Positions 3,158-21,648 of a stretch of 23,187 bases of DNA are shown here, piece by piece. The DNA comes from a virus. The stretch covers positions 1 through 23,187 of the IMG/VR virus record IMGVR_UViG_3300009161_000246; one strand, given 5' to 3'. Below the pieces are notes generated by a model that was given only the letters and a program-made list of their open reading frames with translations, made no database searches and had not been told where the DNA came from. Position 1 is the first letter of the stretch. Every line of letters starts with the position of its first letter. Made by a program: the position numbers and the translations under genes.

Positions 3158-3604
3158 ATGAAACCTATTTTAGCAGTAATGGTTGGCATCAGCGGCTCCG
3201 GAAAAAGCACTTATGCTAATGGACTAAAGACATCTTTGAATGCCCAATTGATTGAGACTGATGCGATACGCCAAGAGTTGACGGGTAACGCCGAAGATCA
3301 AACACAAAACGGCAGAGTATTTGATGTCGCAAAGCGCCGCGTGGACAATTCTCTTTCTCAAGGAAAGAATACAATAATCGATGCCACAAGTCTTGGTGTA
3401 AAAGACCGCAAGGATTGGATTCAAATTGGAAAGGCAAACAATGCAGAGGTGCGAGCGTATTTTATTGATACTCCGGTTGATGTGGCAAAACAACAAAATT
3501 CAAATCGGACCCGCAAAGTTCCGGAATTTGTTATAGAAAAACAAGCCAGTAAATTGCATTCCCCGACTAAAGCCGAAGGGTTTGACAACGTGATTACGAT
3601 ATGA
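3158..3604 (+). CDS. Polynucleotide-kinase-like P-loop kinase
   Basis: This 148-residue protein starts with a beta strand and a Walker A loop, G-I-S-G-S-G-K-S-T at residues 10-18, followed by E-T-D-A-I-R around residue 35 and I-I-D-A-T near residue 75. This is the layout of the AAA_33 / T4 PseT kinase domain, which transfers ATP gamma-phosphate to 5'-OH RNA or DNA ends. T4 Pnkp has a C-terminal HAD phosphatase; here the protein stops after the kinase fold, so any 3'-phosphatase step must come from elsewhere. The C-terminal V-P-E-F-V-I segment followed by F-D-N-V is usual in this kinase group. With the 2H phosphoesterase, RNA ligase and cREC genes downstream it suggests an RNA-repair role. Another small-molecule kinase of the same fold cannot be excluded. 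Confidence 0.8.
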   Translation: MKPILAVMVGISGSGKSTYANGLKTSLNAQLIETDAIRQELTGNAEDQTQNGRVFDVAKRRVDNSLSQGKNTIIDATSLGVKDRKDWIQIGKANNAEVRAYFIDTPVDVAKQQNSNRTRKVPEFVIEKQASKLHSPTKAEGFDNVITI

Positions 3605-7907: not shown

Positions 7908-8309
7908 ATGTATTCCGCAATATTACTAGACGAAAAATCCCAACTCACGTTGTCAGCTTGGGCAGATAATAATATCAAAATTAATGCTGTCAGATTGCCC
8001 ATTGTTGTTCGCGATAATGGCTGGAAAATGATTTGTCATCATATGACAATAAAGTTTGGAGGCACTCCCGAGTTTGCTAAACAATATCTTGACACAGAAC
8101 AAAAGCTTGAAGTCACTCATTATGGTGTGAGTGACAAAGTTGTTGCTGTGCGCGTAGTGGGCTTTCACAGTGAAAACAAGATTCCGCATATTACTGTAGC
8201 AGTCAATGTCAAAGGTGGAGGCAAACCATTTGATAGTAATAAAATCACCGAATGGTTTTCGGTGGAAAAAGGACCAACCCTAAAAGGTCAAGTAAAAGAA
8301 TTACAATGA
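7908..8309 (+). CDS. 2H phosphoesterase-like RNA-end processing protein
   Basis: A 133-residue protein with two H-x-T-x motifs, H-M-T-I (H45, T47) and H-I-T-V (H94, T96), spaced about 48 residues apart and each in a predicted beta strand. This is the signature of the 2H phosphoesterase fold, which opens 2',3'-cyclic phosphates or joins/cleaves 2'-5' RNA linkages. The H-H-M-T-I-K-F-G and P-H-I-T-V-A-V contexts resemble the phage and eukaryotic 'Swiss army knife' RNA-repair group. Lying between the replisome genes and, further on, an RNA ligase and cREC gene, it fits RNA healing. The substrate cannot be read from the sequence. Its stop overlaps the next start as ATGA. Confidence 0.75.
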   Translation: MYSAILLDEKSQLTLSAWADNNIKINAVRLPIVVRDNGWKMICHHMTIKFGGTPEFAKQYLDTEQKLEVTHYGVSDKVVAVRVVGFHSENKIPHITVAVNVKGGGKPFDSNKITEWFSVEKGPTLKGQVKELQ

Positions 8310-8524: not shown

Positions 8525-8580
8525 CTATACAATAAGAATATTTCTTTATTATATTGGTAAGAACCCACGTTTTTCTTTTT

Positions 8581-8588
8581 TATATATA
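8581..8588 (+). promoter_or_regulatory. TATATATA box, late-promoter-like
   Basis: TATATATA lies 10 nt before the ATG at 8599, in a region with no TTGACA. It may belong to the TATTTATA box class; weak on its own. Confidence 0.25.
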
Positions 8589-8598
8589 CTTATACAGT

Positions 8599-9753
8599 AT
8601 GCATATTAAATTAAAATCCATCTTGGCCGAGTCGATGAACGAAATTGACTGGAAGTCTGACGATTTAAAAGACGTAGACCCATCGGCCCCCGAGAATAAA
8701 ACTCGTTGCATGTCTGTACAAGCTGTTAAAGATTGGTTAAGTTCCGAGTTGGATAGATACGAGTCCGGTGGTAAGGCTGCAAAAAACATGCCGAGACTTA
8801 CAGGTACCACGGTGAGAGGATTGGTTGTAAAAGACGAGAGTGGAACGAGAGAAGTAAAGATCGATCAATTTATAAGAATACTATCAACGCCACCAAAAAC
8901 AATTTTTGACGTTGGTGAAAAATCTCTGCATACCGGAGATAAAAACACAATGACGATCAACACTGGAATACCCGCGTTGAGAGGAATTATCTGGGATCCA
9001 GAAGCTCGCGATTTTAAGATTATAAATACATGTCCATCGGCTGGCAGTTGTGCAGTTGATTGTTACGCTCTTCAAGGTTTTTATATCATGAATGACGGCA
9101 AGAATCTAAAACTTGCACAGCGCCTTCAATTGATACTAGAGAAACCATCCGAATATATAATCCAAGCATTCCGCGAAGCTAGAACCCATGCCCAAGAAGC
9201 AAAATGGGACAATAAGATTTTAGAAATACGTTGGAATGACGCGGGTGATTTTTTCAGTGACAGATATTTCCAGTCCGCAATGGCGGTTACACGCCAATTA
9301 CTAGAAGCGGGGTTCCCAGTAAAATCATACTTCTACACCAAAATGGGCAAGTTTGTTGAACTTGGTCAACAAATGGGAATTGAAGTTACATACTCGTTGG
9401 GTGGAACCGATCAAGTCAAAGATGCAAAGAAAAAATCGGTTATCGTACCATCACCAGTATTCAAGAAATTTTTAACATCAAAGCATGGTAGAGGATTTGA
9501 AAAAGATCCAGAGTCAGGAAAAACAAAAATCACTCCTGACGCAAAAGAAGGATTAAGACAAGCAATATTTGATGAATACAAGAACGATCCCGAATTCAAG
9601 GATCTGAATATTGATACAATAAAATATACAGACGAGATGCCTTCGAAAGAAGACGACGAGAGAAAATACAGTTGCATCATACTTCCTGGTGGCGACAGTG
9701 ATAGACCCGCTCAAAGAAAAGACGTTAAACACGTATTTTTGTTGAAGCATTAA
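8599..9753 (+). CDS. Gp88-like cysteine-cluster phage protein
   Basis: A 384-residue protein whose centre matches the phage 'gene product 88' family: N-T-C-P-S-A-G-S-C-A-V-D-C-Y-A (Cys 145, 151, 155), then R-W-N-D-A-G-D-F-F-S (about 211-220) followed by a helix and S-Y-F-Y-T-K. Three cysteines in a C-x5-C-x3-C array suggest an iron-sulfur or metal site, but the biochemical function of the family is not established. The first 130 residues and the last 80 are extra to the core. The start at ATG 8599 gives M-H-I-K-L-K-S-I-L-A-E-S, a phage-like N-terminus; an in-frame GTG/TTG further upstream adds a low-complexity stretch and was rejected. The gene stands alone between the coupled small gene and a promoter. 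Confidence 0.75.
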   Translation: MHIKLKSILAESMNEIDWKSDDLKDVDPSAPENKTRCMSVQAVKDWLSSELDRYESGGKAAKNMPRLTGTTVRGLVVKDESGTREVKIDQFIRILSTPPKTIFDVGEKSLHTGDKNTMTINTGIPALRGIIWDPEARDFKIINTCPSAGSCAVDCYALQGFYIMNDGKNLKLAQRLQLILEKPSEYIIQAFREARTHAQEAKWDNKILEIRWNDAGDFFSDRYFQSAMAVTRQLLEAGFPVKSYFYTKMGKFVELGQQMGIEVTYSLGGTDQVKDAKKKSVIVPSPVFKKFLTSKHGRGFEKDPESGKTKITPDAKEGLRQAIFDEYKNDPEFKDLNIDTIKYTDEMPSKEDDERKYSCIILPGGDSDRPAQRKDVKHVFLLKH

Positions 9754-10772: not shown

Positions 10773-11792
10773 ATGGACCGTAAACTAGCATCAATTCAAG
10801 TTATAAAGGAACTGTCTCCAATAAACGGAGCAGACGCAATTCTTTGTGCCAAGGTTCTTGGGTGGGAATGTGTTGTAAAAAAGTCGGAATTTCAAGTCGG
10901 GGACCGTTGTGTCTATTTTGAAATAGATAGTGTTCTTCCTATTGCACAATGGAATGACCATTTACGCAAAGAAGAAGGTAAGAAACTACGAGTACGTACA
11001 ATTCGTCTTCGTGGACAATTGTCGCAAGGCTTGGCTATGCCACTGTCTATTATTCCGTTGGGTGAATATGAAGTGGGACAAGATGTTACACAAGTCGTTG
11101 GCGTTGAAAAATATGAGGCCGTTGTACCCGCTCACTTATCTGGTATGGCTAAAGGCAACTTTCCTGCATTTTTACATAAAACCGACGAAACTCGTTTACA
11201 ATCTGAGCCAAGAGTGCTTGATGAAGCTATATCCAAAGGTCTTGTGCTCGTTGGTACACTCAAAATGGACGGCACGAGTTTTACCGCATACAGAAGAAAC
11301 GCCGACTTCGGCGTATGTTCCAGAAATTTAGATTTGAAAGAAACCGAGGACAATGTTCACTGGAAGATGGCTCGCAAGCTTAAACTTGAAGAAATTCTTC
11401 GTAGTGAACCTCGCAATCTTTGCATTCAAGGCGAAATGGTTGGACCGGGTATTCAAGGCAATCGTATGGGATTAAAAGAAGTTGATTTATATCTATTCAA
11501 CTTATTTGACATTGATACTGGCAAATATGCTGGATACAATGAACTTGTTGAGTTTGGAAAAAAGCACAATTTAAAAGTTGTACCGGTTGTTGCACAGAAA
11601 GATTTTGGTTTTGGTGAAACAACAACCGTAAGTAAAATGCTTGAAGTTGCTTCGGCTTTAAACTATGATAACGGCACACCAGCCGAAGGCATTGTTTGGC
11701 GTTCTGCATGTGAAACATACAGCGAAGTTCTTAAAGGTAGAATGAGCTTCAAGACAATATCAAATCGCTTCCTTGAAAAGTACAAAGAATAA
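10773..11792 (+). CDS. ATP-dependent RNA ligase, DraRnl-type
   Basis: A 339-residue nucleotidyltransferase that should seal 3'-OH/5'-phosphate RNA ends. The lysine nucleophile lies in motif I, K-M-D-G (K164, D166, G167); G-E-M-V-G at 220-224 and L-F-N-L-F-D-I-D at 241-248 fit motifs III/IIIa, E-G-I-V-W-R at 305-310 is motif IV, and S-F-K-T-I-S at 325-330 is motif V. The N-terminal 110 or so residues look like an OB-type domain (V-G-D-R-C-V-Y-F-E-I-D-S-V-L-P), the arrangement seen in Deinococcus RNA ligase rather than in T4 Rnl1 or Rnl2. All motif residues are intact. It has its own promoter and heads a run of small genes that includes the cREC gene, so an RNA-repair role is likely. Confidence 0.92.
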   Translation: MDRKLASIQVIKELSPINGADAILCAKVLGWECVVKKSEFQVGDRCVYFEIDSVLPIAQWNDHLRKEEGKKLRVRTIRLRGQLSQGLAMPLSIIPLGEYEVGQDVTQVVGVEKYEAVVPAHLSGMAKGNFPAFLHKTDETRLQSEPRVLDEAISKGLVLVGTLKMDGTSFTAYRRNADFGVCSRNLDLKETEDNVHWKMARKLKLEEILRSEPRNLCIQGEMVGPGIQGNRMGLKEVDLYLFNLFDIDTGKYAGYNELVEFGKKHNLKVVPVVAQKDFGFGETTTVSKMLEVASALNYDNGTPAEGIVWRSACETYSEVLKGRMSFKTISNRFLEKYKE

Positions 11793-11999: not shown

Positions 12000-12524
12000 A
12001 TGAAAATGCCAATTATATATAAAATGAAACCAGAGGAAATGCAATTCGCCAAAGATTATGCAACCTATGTTTACAACGAATCTAGAAAATCAAATCTCAA
12101 TTCATTCACAGTTAAAAAAGCAAATAAATCCGAAGCTTTGAACTGGGGAATTGTTGGATATGGCGCAGAAATCGCTTGGTCAAAGGTCTGTGGGGTAGAG
12201 TTCAAACACAACATGAATGAGTTTCATGAAATACCCGATGATGGAATACATGAAGTTCGTTCTACTGAACATCCGCGTGGAGGATTGATTATCAGAGAAA
12301 ACGACTCTATTGATAGAAAGTATATTTTTGCTATGTTACGCAATGGGAATGAATATCATTTTCATGGATGGATGTATGGCAAAGAAATACGCCAGCCAAA
12401 ATATTATTTTAATCCTAACAATTGGAAACCAGCGTGGCGAGTTGATAAAGAACACCTACATCCCATAACAGAAAATGAAATTAACGCTTGCAAAAAAGCG
12501 AGAGCTGGAGTAACGTTTGTATGA
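12000..12524 (+). CDS. Conserved phage protein, possible restriction-like nuclease fold
   Basis: Taking the ATG at 12000 gives 174 residues; ATG 11979 would overlap the previous gene by 10 nt and is the alternative. The core has G-Y-G-A-E-I-A-W-S-K (a helix), then I-P-D-D-G-I-H-E-V-R-S, then G-L-I-I-R-E-N-D and Y-H-F-H-G-W-M-Y-G-K-E. An acidic residue before a strand carrying E-V-R, followed by a W-rich strand, is the layout of phage proteins I associate with PD-(D/E)xK-like folds, with Arg where Lys is usual. No activity can be claimed from this alone. The 3' end overlaps the cREC start as ATGA. Confidence 0.65.
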   Translation: MKMPIIYKMKPEEMQFAKDYATYVYNESRKSNLNSFTVKKANKSEALNWGIVGYGAEIAWSKVCGVEFKHNMNEFHEIPDDGIHEVRSTEHPRGGLIIRENDSIDRKYIFAMLRNGNEYHFHGWMYGKEIRQPKYYFNPNNWKPAWRVDKEHLHPITENEINACKKARAGVTFV

Positions 12525-12895
12525 GTTATAAATTATTTCTTGATGACGAAAGGAATCCAAAGCATGTAACGTGGATAGAGATCCCACTCGGTCCTTGGGT
12601 TGTAGTTCGCAGTTATGATTATTTTGTTAAGTATATTACACAACATGGATTGCCAGATTTTATAACTTTTGATCATGACTTGGGTGTTGAACATTATGCG
12701 CAAGGTGCCGCTGGAACAGCCCCAACATATGACAACTACAAAGAAAGAACAGGATTTCATTGCGCACAATGGCTAATAGAATATTGTATGGACAATAAAC
12801 TTGACATACCAGAATATACGGTTCACAGTATGAATCCAATAGGAAGAGATAATATAAACTCAATCCTAACTTCATTTAAAAACCAAAATATATGA
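12521..12895 (+). CDS. cREC-type receiver protein (cyclic-phosphate processing)
   Basis: A 124-residue protein starting at ATG 12521, which overlaps the previous stop. It opens with a strand and acidic pair, L-F-L-D-D-E-R-N-P (D8, D9), and continues with V-V-R-S-Y near residue 28 and I-T-F-D-H-D-L-G (D51, D53). This is the pattern of the cREC family, receiver-like domains seen with RNA-repair and cyclic-phosphate-processing proteins. The L-D-D-E-R-x-P start and F-D-H-D-L-G are diagnostic of the group; they are unlike response regulators, which carry a single phospho-acceptor Asp. No output domain is attached. Together with the kinase, 2H and ligase genes it completes a plausible RNA end-healing set. 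The exact reaction is not established. Confidence 0.8.
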   Translation: MSYKLFLDDERNPKHVTWIEIPLGPWVVVRSYDYFVKYITQHGLPDFITFDHDLGVEHYAQGAAGTAPTYDNYKERTGFHCAQWLIEYCMDNKLDIPEYTVHSMNPIGRDNINSILTSFKNQNI

Positions 12896-13260
12896 CAAAA
12901 AGAAAATTAAAAATGATTGATATGAAAAATAAAAATATGAACATTGAAGATACAAGTGATAAAAAAGAAACCGGTGATTCTCCCGTTCCATCTTTAGAAT
13001 CTAGGTTGCAAAGTGCATTTTCAAACGATAAAATTAAGGTTTTATTGATTACGGAACGCATATATGACCCAAACACATTCGAGGCATCCCAAGGGATTAA
13101 ACTTGATGTAAATAGCGTCGAAGTAAAGATGCGGTGGAGCGTTGAAACTGCAAATCAGCATCAAACAGCAACGGGCATATCGTCCGAAGACATTATTTAT
13201 AACGCCGTGGTTGGTGCATTGACGGCTTGGGGTACTTGCCGTATGACAATTGTAAAGTAA
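12892..13260 (+). CDS. Hypothetical protein, 122 aa
   Basis: Starts at ATG 12892, overlapping the cREC stop (ATGA), though downstream methionines at residues 8, 11 and 16 are possible starts. The first 40 residues are lysine-rich and polar. The remainder is a compact domain with I-K-V-L-L-I-T-E-R-I-Y, V-E-V-K-M-R-W-S-V-E-T, then D-I-I-Y-N-A-V-V-G-A-L-T-A-W-G. I do not recognise the family. A strong terminator 30 nt downstream closes this transcription unit. Confidence 0.65.
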   Translation: MTKRKLKMIDMKNKNMNIEDTSDKKETGDSPVPSLESRLQSAFSNDKIKVLLITERIYDPNTFEASQGIKLDVNSVEVKMRWSVETANQHQTATGISSEDIIYNAVVGALTAWGTCRMTIVK

Positions 13261-13289: not shown

Positions 13290-13325
13290 AAAGCCCACGA
13301 GGTTAACACTTCGTGGGCTTTTTAT
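13290..13325 (+). terminator. Rho-independent terminator
   Basis: A perfect 10-bp stem, AAGCCCACGA at 13291-13300 with its complement at 13311-13320, a 10-nt loop and a T-run. It isolates the curli-like operon downstream. Confidence 0.9.
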
Positions 13326-13383: not shown

Positions 13384-13872
13384 ATGAATATTAAAAAATA
13401 CATATCATTCTTGCTGATATCACTTTGTACCATAAACATATATGGTAGTGATATGGTACATTCTTTTAAGTCGTCGGCGTTTAACGGCGTCAATTTTTCA
13501 AATACTATGTTAACGATTGAGAATTTGGCGAGAACTCGTAAACAAACAATAAAAGATGTTGCAACATCAAAGGCTGAACAAGCAGCAGCACAGGCCCAAA
13601 ATACACCATTAAACACGTTCATAAACAATTTACAGGCCAGAATATACTCACAGTTAGCTTCTCAAGTCACAGACCAGATATTCAATTCCGGTGGAGCAAC
13701 ATTCGGCATAATAAACTTGCAAGGCGGTGCAACTGTCACGTGGCAACGCAATGGAGATTTCGCTACACTTTTTATAAACGACCCAGCAAGCGGAAGTACT
13801 ACTCAAATAACTGTTCCGGTCGGTTCGTTGGTACCGGTACCGCCAACAACATCACCAACGCCTCCGGGATGA
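13384..13872 (+). CDS. csgF: CsgF-like curli assembly protein
   Basis: A 162-residue secreted protein (E. coli CsgF is 138). Residues 1-22 are a signal peptide with a hydrophobic core ending near Y-G-S. The mature start has M-V-H-S-F-K-S-S-A-F-N-G-V-N, matching the CsgF N-terminus (M-T-F-Q-F-x-N-P-x-F-G-G-N) that in E. coli inserts into the CsgG channel. Then come an Ala/Gln-rich helical stretch, longer than usual, an F-I-N-N-L-Q-A-R-I-Y-S-Q-L segment and a C-terminal three-strand part (T-L-F-I-N-D-P-A-S-G-S-T-T-Q-I-T-V). The ATG at 13384 is preferred over a TTG 6 nt upstream. Its stop overlaps the csgG start. This recognition rests on the aligned patterns plus the adjacent csgG gene. Confidence 0.85.
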   Translation: MNIKKYISFLLISLCTINIYGSDMVHSFKSSAFNGVNFSNTMLTIENLARTRKQTIKDVATSKAEQAAAQAQNTPLNTFINNLQARIYSQLASQVTDQIFNSGGATFGIINLQGGATVTWQRNGDFATLFINDPASGSTTQITVPVGSLVPVPPTTSPTPPG

Positions 13873-14672
13873 AAAACTATGCCATTTTTATTATTGCATC
13901 GTTATTGCTGAGTGGTTGTGCTTCTGTCCCCCACAAACCAGCAATTCTCGACGTACCAAGAACGCAAACTTCTCCAATGGAGAATGAACTGTTTTCTATT
14001 CCGATCATTGATGGCCCACGAATCACTATAGGTGTGTATGGGTTTGCAGATAAAACGGGCGCAAGAAAAACCGCAGATAATTATGCATCATTTTCTGCCG
14101 CCGTGACACAAGGCGCTGAAAGTTGGTTGATTGATGCTTTGAGACAATCGGGGCGTGGAACATGGTTTCAAGTGTTGGAACGTGCAAGTTTGGATAATAT
14201 AATCAAAGAACGGCAGCTCATTTCACAAACCAGAGAAACATTCCAAGGAAAAAATTCCGAAAAACTAACCCCGATGCTATTTGCGGGTATTCTTGCCGAA
14301 GGTGGAATTATCGGATATGATAGCAATATTTTGACGGGTGGCGCGGGTGCCAGCCTATTGGGCATATCAGCGAATACTCAATATCGCAAAGACGTAGTCA
14401 CAGTATCATTGCGGTTTGTGAGCGTGCATACAGGAGAAATACTTTTAAGCACCGCCGTAACAAAAACAATTTCCAGTGTAGCAGTGTCGGGTAACTTATT
14501 CAAATTCTATGAACATGGAACATTGTCAATAGAATCTGAATTGGGACTGACCGCAAACGAACCCAACACAATTGCGGTCCGCAGTGCAATAGAAAAAGCC
14601 GTGATAGACATCATTTATCAAGGTGAAAAAATGAATATCTGGAAGTTCAATAAACAAAACACAACACCATGA
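13869..14672 (+). CDS. csgG: CsgG-like curli secretion lipoprotein pore
   Basis: A 267-residue protein (E. coli CsgG is 277). The signal ends in a lipobox, L-L-S-G-C with Cys17 as the lipidated residue, so it should sit in the outer membrane. CsgG forms a nonameric beta-barrel through which curli subunits leave the cell. Family segments are easy to follow: V-Y-G-F-A-D-K-T-G, then S-F-S-A-A-V (F75 aligns with the constriction Phe of CsgG, whereas the neighbouring Asn is Ser), L-E-R-A-S-L-D-N-I-I-K-E-R, E-G-G-I-I-G-Y-D-S-N, the G-G-x-G-A loop, and V-S-V-H-T-G-E-I-L. The gene is full length with no frameshift. It overlaps both neighbours by ATGA, so the three are made together. Confidence 0.93.
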   Translation: MKNYAIFIIASLLLSGCASVPHKPAILDVPRTQTSPMENELFSIPIIDGPRITIGVYGFADKTGARKTADNYASFSAAVTQGAESWLIDALRQSGRGTWFQVLERASLDNIIKERQLISQTRETFQGKNSEKLTPMLFAGILAEGGIIGYDSNILTGGAGASLLGISANTQYRKDVVTVSLRFVSVHTGEILLSTAVTKTISSVAVSGNLFKFYEHGTLSIESELGLTANEPNTIAVRSAIEKAVIDIIYQGEKMNIWKFNKQNTTP

Positions 14673-15529
14673 AAATAATAAACATAATAAAGTTTACAAT
14701 ACTAACCGCAGTCTTCGGACTTGCGTCGGCCATATATTCTCAAACGCCAGGTGCTCTTGGTGCAATTGCGGGAAACTCGTCTGGCAATCAAATATACGTG
14801 AACCAAATCACAACCGGAGGAGACACCACGTTCATACAAAACGGAGCATCCAACAGAATTGGATCTTTTGCTCTTCCAAGCAACATCACCGGAGATAATA
14901 TCTTCATGGAATGGAGGCAGATTGGCAATGGGAATAGTACGGATTTCTCTATCACGGGAGCCAACACTACGAAGTTGCTGTCGGCTTTTGCTGGAAACAA
15001 TAACGAGCAAAGAATATACTTCAACGGTGCCAATAACAATATGAATTTCAAGTTTGATGGTAACACCAACAGACTTTGGATAAACAATGACGTTACTGTG
15101 TATCGCGACGGTGGAGAAAACACTGCAACGGATAAAGCTACACTGGCAAGTTCGGATTTGCAGATCAAGTTTGCTGGTAACACCAATCTATTTGCATATG
15201 CCACAACAAACGGTCTCAATAACTATCTGAAGTATGATGTCACTGGCAATACCAACACCATAAAATCTACCCAAATTGGTAGTGCTGGCACCGGGACTCG
15301 TCAGTCGGGTCACTATCAAGATGTTACCATTCTTGGTGGGGGAAATGATATGATGATATATCAACAAGGCACGGTTCAACAATATTTCCAATATAGTTTG
15401 ATCGGAAGCAACAACGTGATTCGCGTGTCACAGACAGCAACCGCCGCTCCTACCTTCACAGTCAACAATTCAAACCAATTAGCACCACAAGGTCCGAGCA
15501 GTGCAACAACTGTCGTAGGCAACCCATAA
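14669..15529 (+). CDS. Curlin-like Asn/Gln-rich secreted fibre protein
   Basis: A 286-residue protein with a signal peptide (hydrophobic residues 8-22, ending about A-I-Y-S-Q). The mature part is very rich in Asn, Gly, Thr, Gln and Ser, with recurring G-N-x-N/N-x-x-x-x-x-Q/G-x-N units such as S-S-G-N-Q-I-Y-V-N-Q, E-Q-R-I-Y-F-N-G-A-N-N-N and G-G-G-N-D-M-M-I-Y-Q-Q-G. These recall curlin repeats (S-x5-Q-x-G-x-N-x-A-x3-Q), though the repeats are irregular and longer, so a beta-solenoid or amyloid fibre is inferred rather than proven. Lying directly after csgF and csgG it is the obvious export substrate. There is no cell-wall anchor or transmembrane segment at the C-terminus. E. coli CsgA is much shorter (151). 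Confidence 0.75.
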   Translation: MKIINIIKFTILTAVFGLASAIYSQTPGALGAIAGNSSGNQIYVNQITTGGDTTFIQNGASNRIGSFALPSNITGDNIFMEWRQIGNGNSTDFSITGANTTKLLSAFAGNNNEQRIYFNGANNNMNFKFDGNTNRLWINNDVTVYRDGGENTATDKATLASSDLQIKFAGNTNLFAYATTNGLNNYLKYDVTGNTNTIKSTQIGSAGTGTRQSGHYQDVTILGGGNDMMIYQQGTVQQYFQYSLIGSNNVIRVSQTATAAPTFTVNNSNQLAPQGPSSATTVVGNP

Positions 15530-15530
15530 A

Positions 15531-16706
15531 ATGAAAAAAATTGTTATATTGGCATTAACGTTATTTTTATGTAATGACGTTTATGGTTTTGCTGGAAAAT
15601 TGACAGAGGTGACTGGTCCTACACAAGTTAGTAGGGCCAGCGCCAAATTGGATGGGCAGGTTGGCGTTGGCATTGAAATGGATGATACCATAGAAACTCT
15701 CAAATCGCGTGTCGGTATAACGTTTGAAGATGGTACCAGAGTACAATGCACCGAGTTTAGCAAACTGATTATAGATACTTTTGTGTATGACCCAGTTAGT
15801 GGAAAAGGAAAACTTGGAATAAAAGCGACGATGGGAACCGTTAGATATGCATCTGGGTTGATTGCAAAAAATAATAAAGAAGAAGTAAAAGTAAAAACAC
15901 CAACGGCATCTATATCAGTACGCGGTACAGATTTTTCAATGACAGTTGATGAATTGGGTAGAAGCCTTGTTATTCTTCTTCCATCCCAACCTCAATTCGG
16001 ACCCTCGGTGATTGGACAAATAACAGTGAGCAATGGTCTTGGAACCGTTGTGTTGACCAAGGCGTATCAAGCCACATTCGTAGCATCAAGTTCCGTCGTA
16101 CCGTCTTCTCCTGTAATTTTGAATTTTGACGACGAGAGCAAGGTGAACAACATGTTGTTGATAGACACACCCAAAAATGTCACACAGGCCGCAAAAGAAG
16201 CAAAGAAAACAGCGATTAATACAGAAAAAGAAGATACTGGTGAAGATAAAAATAAAAAAATGGAAAAGAAAGAAACAAAGTCCGATAGTAAATCTCCCAG
16301 CACGTCGGTTGCACAAGTCGGAGAAAGTCCAACCGAATCCGCGACCGAACCAACAAACTTACCAGTCGTTGTAGTTCAAGAAACCGTTGTCGCAAATCTT
16401 GATATAACTGCTATAAGTCCAAGTACCAATATTGCTATTATGGATGCAATTGCTTCAAAACAGTCTGTACAACCAACGACAACCTCAATTGCACCAACTG
16501 TATCTATTCCAACTTCCACTGTGAATAATGGTTTTACAACTAACGGCACTCACGCCATACTGTATATAACCAATGGAAACAATATGGTGTGGTATACTTT
16601 AAAAGCCGACGCAAATGCCATATTTAATATAAGCAGCGACGGTAATACAAAAGAATATACTCTCAATTATGGCAGTAAACTTAAAGTGACTGTTGTTCAA
16701 AAATGA
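15531..16706 (+). CDS. FecR-domain periplasmic protein
   Basis: A 391-residue exported protein: signal peptide to about residue 19, a FecR-type domain roughly 20-200 and a long linker followed by a small C-terminal strand domain. The FecR part shows V-G-V-G-I-E-M-D-D-T-I-E-T, then F-E-D-G-T-R-V-Q-C, then T-P-T-A-S-I-S-V-R-G-T-D-F-S, the usual T-P-x-A-x-x-x-V-R-G-T-x-F signature. Such domains sense or relay signals in the periplasm. Residues 225-260 are Lys/Glu-rich and 260-330 Ser/Thr/Pro-rich. It lacks the membrane helix and cytoplasmic part of FecR anti-sigma regulators, so it probably acts on the CHASE2 domain of the next gene's product or on the fibre. It follows the curlin-like gene with 1 nt between and overlaps the cyclase gene. 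Confidence 0.9.
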   Translation: MKKIVILALTLFLCNDVYGFAGKLTEVTGPTQVSRASAKLDGQVGVGIEMDDTIETLKSRVGITFEDGTRVQCTEFSKLIIDTFVYDPVSGKGKLGIKATMGTVRYASGLIAKNNKEEVKVKTPTASISVRGTDFSMTVDELGRSLVILLPSQPQFGPSVIGQITVSNGLGTVVLTKAYQATFVASSSVVPSSPVILNFDDESKVNNMLLIDTPKNVTQAAKEAKKTAINTEKEDTGEDKNKKMEKKETKSDSKSPSTSVAQVGESPTESATEPTNLPVVVVQETVVANLDITAISPSTNIAIMDAIASKQSVQPTTTSIAPTVSIPTSTVNNGFTTNGTHAILYITNGNNMVWYTLKADANAIFNISSDGNTKEYTLNYGSKLKVTVVQK

Positions 16707-18760
16707 AAGGGTATATACTCAAACTATTTGGGATCGGTGTCTTGATATTAACTGCCATGGTTGCACTTCGTATGAAAGATCCATATCCAATAGAAGTATT
16801 GCGTTTAAAAGGGCTGGACTATTATCAACGCACGCAAGACAAAATTGAAAGTGAAAATATTATTGTTGTTGAAATCGACGAAAAAAGTTTGGAAGAAAAA
16901 GGACAATGGCCGTGGCCAAGAAATGAATTGGCAGATGGTATAAAGAAAGCGTTCGAAAATGAAGCAGCTACTGTTGTATTACCAATTATATTTGCAGAAA
17001 AAGATAGAATGGGTGGAGACGCGGCATTTGTGGAAATATTGGGAAAAGCACCCGTAATCACATCACAATCTGCGGCGGTAAAAGGTAAGGGTGTCCCAGT
17101 ACCAAGAGGAATGGCGACGATTGGCGGCAGTGTGGATGGATGGTTGTATGATTACCCCAACGCAATCGGGCCGATGAAAGAAATAGGTGAATCGTCTGCC
17201 GGTGTAGGAATGTTATTGACAGCACCCGAACTTGATGGCGTGGTACGTCGCTTGCCTCTGGTTGTACAAGTAAAAAAAGAAACATACCCAACCTTACCAC
17301 TGGAAGTGTTACGGGTTTTTGGAAACGAACCAAGTTATCAAGCAAAAATCAACGGCGCTGGAGTTCAGGCTATAAGAGTAAAAGGTTCTAACCCAATCAA
17401 TACAGATGCTAACGGTAGAGTGTGGATAAATTTCAAATACAAATTTGATAATATTTCATACACGGACGCCGATTGGTCTAAAGTAAAAGGAAAGATTGTT
17501 GTATTGGCATTAACAGCCGAAGGATTGGTGAATACAGTAGCAACCCCAGTTGGAATATCCCACGGTTATGAAGTTAGTATGCAAACTTTACAGATGTTGA
17601 TAGACGGAAACAGATTAGAAAGAAAAGCCGAGTTCGATTTATATGAATTAATTTCCGGTGTAACTATTGCTATACTTTTAATTTTAGCTGCTGCATATCT
17701 TGGATATGTTTACAATGGTGTTTTGATAACCGTTCTTTTATGTGTACCAACCGCAGTTGGATTTTATGTTTTTAATAAACACGGCTACTTGTTAGATTAC
17801 ACTTGGCCAACACTGGCTTTATTTTTGCCGTGGGTAGGAGCAATATTCATGAGATTTGTGATGGAATACAAACTCAAGATGCAAATCAAGAAGCAATTCG
17901 GTACATATTTAGCTCCGGCTTTGGTGGAAAAGTTGCAGAAGAATCCTGGACTATTACAGTTAGGTGGAGATGAAAGAGAATTGAGCATAATGTTTACAGA
18001 CGTTCGTGGGTTCACCGCAATTTCAGAGCACTATGGCAAGGATGTTCAAGGTCTAACGAAGATTATGAACAGATATATGACCGCCATGACAAAAGCTATT
18101 TTAGAAAATGATGGTACCCTGGATAAGTATATCGGTGACGCTCAGATGGCTTTTTGGAATGCTCCGTTGGATAATCCAAATCACGCCAAAGACGCTGTGA
18201 AAACCGCACTGTCCATGCTAAAAGAGTTGGACACTTTTAATTCCGAAATAAAAAATGAAGGCATTCCTGCATTTGGAATGGGACTGGGTATAAACACAGG
18301 TGACGTTGTTGTCGGAAACATGGGGTCAACACAAAGGTTCGACTATACCTGCTTGGGAGATCATGTGAACTTGGCATCTCGTCTAGAAGGTCAAAGTAAA
18401 TCATACGGTGTGCGTATTATCATCGGATCAAAGACATACGACATGGTAAAAGACGAATATAAATGTGTTGAGTTGGATTGCATTGCTGTAAAAGGAAAGA
18501 AACAAGGTGTAAAAATCTATACCATACTTGAAAATCAAGGAATACCGTTTCAAAGTGCGGTGTTTTCGGTGCATTCCGAGTTCTTGAATCAATACAGAAT
18601 GCAAAATTGGGATAAAGCTATTAGCACAGCGGATGTATTAATGAAACATAATAAAGAACTTATACACTATTATGAGATGATGATAGAAAGAATCGGAGAG
18701 CTTAGAAAGAGTAATCTTCCCCCAGATTGGGACGGCGTTTTTAGAGCAACTTCCAAATAA
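16703..18760 (+). CDS. CHASE2-domain membrane adenylate cyclase (class III)
   Basis: A 685-residue membrane receptor cyclase. One N-terminal helix (about 5-22) is followed by a periplasmic CHASE2 domain (about 25-310) with V-E-I-D-E-K-S-L and W-P-W-P-R, three membrane helices (about 314-336, 338-356, 366-385), and a cytoplasmic class III cyclase domain from about 425 to 600. Catalytic residues are all visible: metal Asp in F-T-D-V-R-G-F (D433) and in K-Y-I-G-D (D479), adenine-binding Lys (K475) with Thr549 in the partner position, and L-G-D-H-V-N-L-A-S-R (N556, R560). A Lys/Thr pair is usual in class IIIb adenylate cyclases. The enzyme should make cAMP in response to a periplasmic cue. It is the last gene of the operon. 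Confidence 0.95.
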   Translation: MKGYILKLFGIGVLILTAMVALRMKDPYPIEVLRLKGLDYYQRTQDKIESENIIVVEIDEKSLEEKGQWPWPRNELADGIKKAFENEAATVVLPIIFAEKDRMGGDAAFVEILGKAPVITSQSAAVKGKGVPVPRGMATIGGSVDGWLYDYPNAIGPMKEIGESSAGVGMLLTAPELDGVVRRLPLVVQVKKETYPTLPLEVLRVFGNEPSYQAKINGAGVQAIRVKGSNPINTDANGRVWINFKYKFDNISYTDADWSKVKGKIVVLALTAEGLVNTVATPVGISHGYEVSMQTLQMLIDGNRLERKAEFDLYELISGVTIAILLILAAAYLGYVYNGVLITVLLCVPTAVGFYVFNKHGYLLDYTWPTLALFLPWVGAIFMRFVMEYKLKMQIKKQFGTYLAPALVEKLQKNPGLLQLGGDERELSIMFTDVRGFTAISEHYGKDVQGLTKIMNRYMTAMTKAILENDGTLDKYIGDAQMAFWNAPLDNPNHAKDAVKTALSMLKELDTFNSEIKNEGIPAFGMGLGINTGDVVVGNMGSTQRFDYTCLGDHVNLASRLEGQSKSYGVRIIIGSKTYDMVKDEYKCVELDCIAVKGKKQGVKIYTILENQGIPFQSAVFSVHSEFLNQYRMQNWDKAISTADVLMKHNKELIHYYEMMIERIGELRKSNLPPDWDGVFRATSK

Positions 18761-18875: not shown

Positions 18876-18989
18876 ATGAACAGCGTAGCACATAAATCAC
18901 AAAATTCGAACTCCTATTGGAGCTTGTGCTTTATTGTGCAACCGACACTAGGAACCAATACAGGTCGTGATGCGAAAGGTGTGGCATAA
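18876..18989 (+). CDS. Possible 37-aa leader peptide
   Basis: An ATG at 18876 opens a 37-codon frame whose last three codons and TAA stop form the 5' strand of the antiterminator stem. The peptide is rich in Ser, Asn and Thr with one Tyr-Trp pair. A ribosome reaching the stop would cover that strand and favour the terminator. No SD precedes it, and a frame this short could occur by chance, so its translation is uncertain. Confidence 0.3.
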   Translation: MNSVAHKSQNSNSYWSLCFIVQPTLGTNTGRDAKGVA

Positions 18990-19019: not shown

Positions 19020-19048
19020 CCCACCTTCTAAAAAGAGGTGGGTTTTTT
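19020..19048 (+). terminator. Rho-independent terminator of the leader RNA
   Basis: A 7-bp GC-rich stem (19020-19026 with 19036-19042), a 9-nt loop and six Ts. Confidence 0.8.
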
Positions 19049-19107: not shown

Positions 19108-19345
19108 AACCTAATGATAGGTATCAATTTCAAGTTTTTTCACAATACAATTTAGATGGGTAAAAATGCACCCCGAAGCACTAAAATAGCCACCGGCGCG
19201 ATAGCGACCGTTTTGTGGGAATCAATATCAACAGAGATAGTTTATCTGTTGTGAGGCCGAAGTGACATGTTTATTTTAATATAAAGTTGGAGAAAAGTGC
19301 AATATTCCCTACGGATCGTAGGATAAGCACTTTTCTCCAAACATT
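19108..19345 (+). ncRNA. Candidate structured non-coding RNA
   Basis: No convincing reading frame lies between the promoter and the tRNA at 19390. The region has a 7-bp hairpin, CAACAGA/TCTGTTG (19229-19235 with 19245-19251), and a compound hairpin: a perfect 14-bp stem (19287-19300 with 19327-19340), an internal loop, then a perfect 6-bp stem CCTACG/CGTAGG (19308-19322) with a GAT loop. It is not followed by a T-run, so it is not a simple terminator. No known RNA family was recognised. The 3' end is unknown. Confidence 0.5.
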
Positions 19346-19540: not shown

Positions 19541-19858
19541 ATGGAAGACAAAGATATTCTCGTCGAGTTTTTAAAAGGTGGATGGGTTGTTGCTCTGATC
19601 GGAGCACTGGGTATGGTAGCAAGAACTTTCATGGATGGTGTAAAACGTACTAATGGTGAACAAATCAAACGAATCATCGCCGCTGCGATATGTTCAACAA
19701 TCGCATGGTTTATTTTAGAACAAATAGAAGTAAGTAGCTTAACAAAAGCAATCAGTTATGGAATAACTGGTGTGATAAGTCCAGAAATCCTTCAAGGTTT
19801 AACACTTCTTTCAAAGAAGTTTGCTAAGAAACCGGAAGATTTCTTAAATAAGAAATAA
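19541..19858 (+). CDS. Putative holin, LydA-like
   Basis: A 105-residue membrane protein. Helix 1 (about 13-30) carries G-G-W-V-V-A-L-I-G-A-L-G, helix 2 (about 44-60) is A-A-A-I-C-S-T-I-A-W-F-I-L, and a third, more amphipathic segment (68-90) contains G-I-T-G-V-I-S-P-E-I-L-Q-G. A W-x-x-x-L-I-G-A-L-G helix, a middle helix after a basic turn, then G-I-x-G and a lysine-rich tail match P1 LydA-type holins, which form lesions in the inner membrane for endolysin release. No endolysin gene lies in the window. It sits between two tRNAs. Confidence 0.75.
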   Translation: MEDKDILVEFLKGGWVVALIGALGMVARTFMDGVKRTNGEQIKRIIAAAICSTIAWFILEQIEVSSLTKAISYGITGVISPEILQGLTLLSKKFAKKPEDFLNKK

Positions 19859-20117: not shown

Positions 20118-20555
20118 ATGAAACAAAATCATAACGTTAAAGTTTCGGATGCTGACATTATCCGAGTATACAATGAGCAATGCACGCTACACGAGGCAGC
20201 CGGAAAATTAAAAGTTACGGTGATAACTTTATGGAGACGAGCCAAAAAATTAGGTTTGGCTTGGAAAAATAAAGATTATACTGGAAACAAAGGGTGCAAA
20301 ATTTTATTATCGGAAATACTTGAAGGAAAACACCCTGAGTATCAAACTTTTAAATTAAAAAATAGAATTATAAAAGAAAAAATAAAAGAAAATAAATGTG
20401 AAGTGTGTGGGATAACAAGTTGGACAGGTAAAGAATTAATAATGCAACTTGATCATATAGATGGAAATCCGCACAATCATAAATTGGAAAATCTAAGAAT
20501 GATTTGTCCAAATTGTCATTGCCAAACACCAACTTGGTGTGGTAAAAACAAATAA
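20118..20555 (+). CDS. HNH homing endonuclease with N-terminal HTH
   Basis: A 145-residue protein. The N-terminus (about 20-48) is a helix-turn-helix: L-H-E-A-A-G-K-L-K-V-T-V-I-T-L-W-R-R-A-K-K-L-G-L, here listed by residue. The C-terminus is an HNH nuclease with zinc Cys pairs C94/C97 and C130/C133 around D-H-I-D-G (H113), N-L-R (N125) and C-P-N-C-H. All key residues are present, so it should nick or cut DNA. Such genes are free-standing mobile elements in phages and often sit in tRNA arrays; this one lies between tRNA-Gly and tRNA-Tyr. No intron boundary is visible around it. Confidence 0.92.
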   Translation: MKQNHNVKVSDADIIRVYNEQCTLHEAAGKLKVTVITLWRRAKKLGLAWKNKDYTGNKGCKILLSEILEGKHPEYQTFKLKNRIIKEKIKENKCEVCGITSWTGKELIMQLDHIDGNPHNHKLENLRMICPNCHCQTPTWCGKNK

Positions 20556-21542: not shown

Positions 21543-21648
21543 TTCGTATGTAGTTCAGAGGTAGACCAGTGCTCACTATGATGGTAAATGACACCGCGAA
21601 AGTGTGATAAAGCACGTGCCGTTGGTTCGAATCCAACCATGCGAATCA
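21543..21648 (+). tRNA. Interrupted tRNA-Ile(GAT)-like gene with 30-nt insert
   Basis: Acceptor TTCGTATG/CATGCGAA (8 bp), a D-arm with GTTC-AGAGGTA-GACC and T-arm GTTGG-TTCGAAT-CCAAC are good. The anticodon stem GTGCT/AGCAC (21569-21573 with 21611-21615) encloses 37 nt instead of 7. Removing 21575-21604 would leave CTGATAA, a standard tRNA-Ile loop with anticodon GAT at 21606-21608. The 3' end reads TCA, so CCA is not encoded, unlike its neighbours. Either a spliced insert, a pseudogene or a special RNA. No group I intron core fits in 30 nt. Confidence 0.5.

Follow-up and report, generated by a model that had tools for sequence, protein, structure and literature searches.

Why would a phage with a T4-type replication apparatus carry, side by side, genes for a curli secretion pore, a curlin-like fibre, a FecR-domain protein and a CHASE2 adenylate cyclase? 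The question is raised by a stretch of 23,187 bases from the IMG/VR virus record IMGVR_UViG_3300009161_000246 (hereafter, the window), the plus strand of which encodes at positions 13384-18760, in this order, csgF, csgG, a curlin-like fibre open reading frame (ORF), a FecR-domain ORF and a CHASE2 cyclase. As our answer, we consider the chances somewhat better than even (a probability of roughly 0.55) that this is a genuine phage operon in which a fibre-secretion module is joined to a fibre-linked FecR/CHASE2 sensor that works through cyclic AMP (cAMP), and that this system is displayed by infected cells. At the level of sequence, the identities of the genes, their order and coupling, the intact catalytic residues of the cyclase and the occurrence of the two modules at separate loci in bacteria are established, as described below.

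Architecture of the operon and its gene products

Re-reading of the ORFs reproduced exactly the five-gene coordinates of the initial annotation, which had been made from the sequence alone, and also the junctions that it reported: ATGA overlaps join csgF to csgG (13869-13872), csgG to the fibre gene (14669-14672) and fecR to the cyclase gene (16703-16706), and a 1-nt gap separates the fibre gene from fecR. Pfam matches for CsgF, CsgG, FecR, CHASE2 and the cyclase all exceed the curated cut-offs and, together with family profiles, agree with the identities proposed there (CsgF, CsgG, a curlin-like fibre, FecR and a CHASE2 class III cyclase). Because strong intrinsic terminators lie both before and after the operon (Table 1), the five genes look like one independent transcription unit; the upstream terminator stem is conserved in the relative L066/G397. 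The surroundings are those of a phage, with a T4-type DNA polymerase, a clamp loader, a holin, an RNA ligase and 14 tRNAs, in keeping with the T4-type replisome and tRNA array described originally. The initial annotation had also cautioned that phage and bacterial DNA might have been falsely joined at the operon borders. We reject such an assembly chimera as vanishingly improbable: identical junctions are found in L066/G397 and other independent contigs, the flanking neighbours are the same in the 90.6-kb contig G397 (the upstream gene is 77%, the polymerase 95% and the holin 92% identical), and the cassette is carried by the complete isolate genomes of phages HTVC008M and Melnitz.

Table 1. 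Features of the operon and its borders (window coordinates)
Feature	Position	Strand	Evidence
Intrinsic terminator, 14-bp stem, separates operon from upstream genes	13290..13321	+	Terminator scan
csgF, curli assembly factor associated with pore	13384..13872	+	PF10614, E=2.1e-12; phrog_35372
csgG, outer-membrane lipoprotein secretion pore	13869..14672	+	PF03783, E=4e-49
Curlin-repeat (CsgA/B-like) fibre subunit	14669..15529	+	Family-level profile evidence
FecR-domain protein, 391 aa	15531..16706	+	PF04773, E=1.3e-9
CHASE2 adenylate cyclase	16703..18760	+	PF05226, 2.8e-40; PF00211, 1e-23
Intrinsic terminator, 3' of operon and of small ORF 18876-18989	19020..19042	+	Terminator scan

The solved structures of E. 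coli CsgG match the window CsgG with E=8e-45, and its lipobox LLLSGC (C17), pointed out in the initial annotation, is invariant in an alignment of 14 phage CsgGs. Of the residues that form the constriction in E. coli CsgG (Y51, N55 and F56), the equivalent of F56 is kept in the alignment, in which A and S stand opposite Y51 and N55 beside a one-residue insertion. CsgF begins, by inspection, with a signal peptide; a comparison with PDB sequences at single-sequence sensitivity gave no CsgF match. The fibre subunit was assigned at the level of its family, in which 7 of 19 members match Curlin_rpt (PF07012); the family profile matches the curlin repeat protein PDB 8c50 (E=2e-8) and also retrieves the curlin genes adjoining csgF-csgG in alphaproteobacterial chromosomes. 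The AlphaFold model of the fibre protein is all-beta (pLDDT 72).

The closest solved structure to the window cyclase is P. aeruginosa CyaB (3r5g). All five catalytic residues listed in the initial annotation were found and, with the substrate-specifying T549, the six positions comprise D433 and D479 (metal), K475 and T549 (adenine), N556 and R560. A Lys/Thr adenine pair is the one used by bacterial class IIIb adenylate cyclases. In 77 of 78 distinct phage cyclases all six positions would permit activity, and across the set the metal Asp, Lys and Arg are invariant. This near-complete conservation argues for retained catalysis, and the window cyclase would be expected to be active and to make cAMP.

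Two variants of the cyclase gene were observed separately. The cyclase of Melnitz (L002:8983-11034), the sole exception among the 78 distinct homologues, has Ser in place of the transition-state Asn. In a 297-kb contig, an ORF with DUF723/T5orf172 domains (L057:10773-11576), probably a homing endonuclease, splits the cyclase gene near its 3' end, and position 549 in the catalytic domain of this cyclase is Asp, not Thr.

Bacterial homes of the modules and movement of the cassette

In bacteria, the two halves of the operon were found apart. Alphaproteobacterial type VIII (curli) loci share csgF-csgG and curlin repeats with the phage operon; in contrast to it, the five chromosomal loci with CsgF that we examined contain csgG and curlin genes and neither fecR nor a CHASE2 cyclase gene. 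CsgF is rare in this group (above cut-off in 5 of 385 sampled alphaproteobacterial genomes), and no csgF or csgG was found near the nearest bacterial CHASE2 cyclases. FecR genes, by comparison, tend to accompany CHASE2 genes: the gene coordinates of 14 alphaproteobacterial genomes place 12 of 58 at 8 kb or less from a CHASE2 gene, where 0.77 would be expected in a Poisson calculation. Several of the FecR domains next to CHASE2 are the N-terminal heads of giant adhesins, which are secreted and contain RTX, cadherin, Big_9 or Calx-beta domains (loci L135/L165, L215, L219 and L223), type I secretion genes (TolC-like and/or HlyD-like) are present in 7 of the 15 nearest cyclase loci, and the HlyD and cyclase genes are joined by ATGA or lie a few bp apart in L165, L215 and L223. 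In Desertibaculum subflavum (L165), the order is TolC, FecR-adhesin, HlyD and CHASE2 cyclase, with a 4-base overlap between the last two. By its gene content, the phage cassette parallels this locus, close packing of secretion machinery, a FecR surface protein and a cyclase included, with curli secretion and curlin replacing type I secretion and the RTX adhesin; the differences are that loci of the L165 type encode a type I secretion system and a giant adhesin, not CsgG and curlin, and that the phage FecR protein is short and without RTX repeats. The cassette can thus be understood as a merger of two bacterial modules, of which the FecR/CHASE2-cyclase part often occurs with secreted adhesins.

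Among phages, the combination is widespread. IMG/VR contains no fewer than 598 candidate stretches with a gene related to that of the window cyclase. In the 131 loci that we analysed, all complete cassettes read csgF-csgG-fibre-fecR-(second fibre)-cyclase, most partial ones end at a contig end, and the ATGA overlap of fecR and cyclase is present in 89 loci. After removal of duplicates, 60 distinct complete cassettes remained, all with this single gene order, a recurrence far beyond chance. The description of the genes as unexpected cargo in the initial annotation did not hold up. CsgF and CsgG, with unidentified partners, were reported in 2020 in T4-like pelagimyophages, where their purpose was called a mystery (PMC7029224), and the full set of CsgF, CsgG, CsgA/B, FecR and adenylate cyclase was described in 2022 in marine pelagiphage podoviruses and myoviruses (PMC9599517); a full-text literature search yielded no further paper combining adenylate cyclase, phage, FecR and curli. 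The window is a new carrier, in a distinct phage lineage, of this already described combination. Compared with the published pelagiphage type VIII secretion/curli cassette (PMC9599517; HTVC008M and Melnitz), it has the same genes in the same order (CsgG 46-47% and cyclase 41% identical), but one fibre gene instead of two and a cyclase of another clade. In the podovirus form a histidine kinase gene precedes the cassette (PMC9599517); the ORF upstream of the window cassette (12892-13260) has no kinase match.

Several comparisons indicate that the cassette has a history of its own. In a tree of 50 cyclases built with a quick method, all phage sequences form one group, which a long, fully supported branch separates from the bacterial cyclases, and the window clade is distinct from that of HTVC008M and Melnitz. 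The phage core differs too: the window DNA polymerase is closest to that of Microcystis phage Mel-JY01 (41%) and only about 31-34% identical to those of HTVC008M and Melnitz. In two large contigs, G006 (140 kb) and G407 (128 kb), the five cassette genes are 47-77% identical to those of the window as against 29% for the polymerase, 34-36% for the clamp loader and, in G407, 28% for a protein with a cREC domain. The opposite pattern is seen in G397, where the flanking replication genes are 91-95% identical but the fibre and FecR only 53-57%. Because the identities of cassette and flanks are discordant in these three contigs, we conclude that the cassette moves between phage lineages, travelling as a block among T4-like phages whose replication genes differ widely. 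A transfer between phage families was reported earlier (PMC9599517), to which the present one adds another example.

Of note, complete or partial cassettes also occur in contigs binned as Planctomycetota and Rhodobacteraceae (L131, L132, L133 and L163; L163 has 36% GC), and their cyclases fall inside the phage clade. Because L131 encodes a phage head protease, it is likely misbinned phage DNA.

A candidate fibre-linked cAMP sensor and its alternatives

By inspection, the N-terminus of the FecR protein is a signal peptide in the form of a hydrophobic helix, behind which lies the FecR domain. AlphaFold models the N-terminal beta domain with confidence, then a linker of low confidence (~207-332) and a C-terminal beta segment. 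In a Foldseek search, the best match was PupR (6ovk, E=5e-4, prob 1.00), specifically its periplasmic domain for cell-surface signalling, and the third was a "cell surface anchoring domain" (5ix9; TM 0.72 of target, 1.3 A over 62 columns). The 5ix9 domain serves for retention in the ice adhesin of Marinomonas. The model thus supports a FecR fold; a search of PDB sequences with the FecR profile returned nothing useful. FecR/PupR domains relay the status of the outer membrane inward. Unlike the FecR/PupR surface-signalling anti-sigma factors, with which the domain fold is shared, the phage system has no cytoplasmic anti-sigma part or sigma factor, and its output would be the cyclase.

Three bacterial systems offer parallels. 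A retention domain keeps a secreted adhesin in its outer-membrane channel while itself remaining periplasmic (PMC13090378), and the LapA/LapD system shares with our proposal this idea and a link to a second messenger. It differs in that LapA/LapD reads c-di-GMP, where the phage system would synthesize cAMP, and the phage FecR resembles a retention domain by the 5ix9 fold only: it has no match to NCBIfam retention_LapA, and its 391-aa sequence contains no LapG-type [TAP]AAG cleavage motif. In S. meliloti, the outer-membrane beta-barrel NsrA signals to CHASE2 cyclases in one pathway (PMC7529298, PMC13001267), and Sinorhizobium CyaD1 without its CHASE2 domain makes cAMP constitutively (PMC5498481). 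In the biofilm-linked BiofilmReg operon of Burkholderia (PMC5192318), a periplasmic FecR/LysM protein adjoins a CHASE2 sensor; unlike in the phage, the output there is a histidine kinase, and the operon includes neither a secretion pore nor a fibre. The fold matches to PupR and 5ix9, together with these parallels, favour FecR as a fibre- or pore-linked controller of the CHASE2 cyclase. Most likely, the protein acts in the manner of a surface-adhesin head, in which an anchor domain in the periplasm is connected by a long flexible linker to a C-terminal strand, and not as an iron regulator.

On how the fibre is secreted and anchored, which way the signal runs and what the phage gains, we infer the following. 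CsgF, CsgG and the curlin-repeat protein would export a curli-like fibre across the outer membrane of the infected Gram-negative host, and FecR and the CHASE2 adenylate cyclase would constitute a trans-envelope sensor: periplasmic FecR, by contacting or anchoring the fibre or the pore, would control the cyclase in the inner membrane through its CHASE2 domain, and the cyclase would then set host cAMP. The phage might profit through adhesion or aggregation of infected cells or prospective hosts, through shielding from other phages or through metabolic control. A change of the host surface together with cAMP signalling during infection is plausible and close to published proposals; the consequences for receptor display, superinfection or host catabolism envisaged in the initial annotation would be speculative. 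A more specific version, which we regard as doubtful, is that FecR is a retention anchor the linker of which passes through the CsgG/CsgF pore, so that its C-terminal strand seeds the curlin fibre outside and its periplasmic head reports fibre docking to the CHASE2 cyclase, coupling display and cAMP. If so, this would be surface signalling with a cyclase replacing the anti-sigma factor, and FecR would replace the missing CsgB/CsgE functions. The resemblance of the C-terminal strand of FecR to the end of a curlin repeat is only suggestive.

Several observations weigh against a fibre-secreting, cAMP-sensing operon. The CsgE gate is missing from the five operon ORFs; the CsgD regulator and CsgC were likewise not detected there. 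CsgE and CsgD are also absent from alphaproteobacterial systems (PMC9599517). The window fibre ORF has by itself no convincing Pfam match, and a fold search of the PDB with its model gave no significant solved structure. The 5ix9 match taken alone has E=0.03, and among the 15 bacterial cyclase loci examined as the nearest ones, only 6 have a FecR gene in the vicinity. The curlin-like C-terminus of FecR is statistically weak: the shift of the group has p=1e-5, no individual sequence stands out, and the regular expression was composed after the sequences had been inspected. Finally, phage Melnitz, itself a carrier of the cassette, showed no clumping (PMC9004378).

Other functions have been proposed for parts of the cassette. 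From Melnitz, for which structure models of the pore were presented, Buchholz et al. suggested that CsgG/CsgF is a lysis-timing device that depolarizes the envelope at the end of infection (PMC9004378), and a pore without a CsgE gate might indeed leak. For the window phage this is improbable: the proposal leaves the conserved curlin, FecR and cyclase genes without a role, and it is weakened by the phage's own holin-like gene (19541-19858; phrog_6384, E=8e-8), which is 90-92% conserved in relatives. Import of nutrients, cofactors or siderophores through the pore, with FecR as an iron-responsive regulator, has been put forward for pelagiphages (PMC7029224, PMC9599517) and accords with the classical FecR, which works with iron-citrate uptake. 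We consider this unlikely as well, since an anti-sigma part and a sigma factor are both lacking and the bacterial relatives beside CHASE2 cyclases are adhesin heads; specifically, the signal peptide at the start of FecR leaves no room for an N-terminal cytoplasmic anti-sigma domain, neither a sigma factor nor a TonB receptor is seen among the operon genes, and the curlin subunit is left unexplained.

The almost perfect conservation of the catalytic residues would also suit a scenario in which only the cyclase matters to the phage, as a means of directing metabolism or transcription through raised host cAMP, and in which the linkage of the curli genes has some other cause. We give this a small chance because the five genes stay joined and ordered across distant phages and the sampled bacterial curli loci lack a cyclase, which together indicate that the linkage was built and kept. 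Reading the cassette as a fibre-secretion module coupled to a FecR/CHASE2 sensor recasts "iron regulator plus cyclase" as a testable hypothesis of fibre anchoring and fibre sensing, in which the account of the FecR-cyclase half is new. Should fibre display and host cAMP prove to be coupled, a second messenger would be the means by which phages control the surface of the cell that they infect. We also tried to identify partners from gene-by-gene distance correlations; because the top values were mostly between neighbouring genes, linkage could not be separated from interaction and this approach was abandoned.

Promoters, small ORFs and neighbouring genes

A T4 late promoter (TATAAATA) was considered 5' of csgF. 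Near matches are present in 30 of 65 distinct upstream regions as against 25% in shuffles, and the site in the window has two mismatches; we therefore make no claim for such a promoter. An Rfam search of the conserved intergenic stretch identified no family.

Downstream of the cyclase, a conserved 37-codon ORF (MNSVAHKSQNSNSYWSLCFIVQPTLGTNTGRDAKGVA; 18876-18989) has its own sigma70-like promoter (18817) and is followed by the downstream terminator. Its reading frame is open in ~17 relatives and its length changes in-frame; with substitutions by codon position of 712/560/798, a small protein and an RNA are both possible. Behind a promoter-like site (19074) lies a second small ORF (19156-19254, 32 aa), the coding status of which is doubtful because it is near-identical in close relatives and disrupted in distant ones.

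Elsewhere in the window, Rfam detected a tRNA at 21544-21645 (44 bits) that is missing from the ARAGORN list, and a GP88-family protein (8554-9753) and an HNH-type endonuclease (20118-20555) are encoded near the tRNA array. A possible RNA-repair set is scattered over 3158-3604, 7908-8309, 10773-11792 and 12488-12895, the candidates being an AAA_33 kinase, a weak tRNA-ligase phosphodiesterase-like protein, an RNA ligase with a PHA02142 OB fold and a cREC cyclic-phosphate receiver protein.

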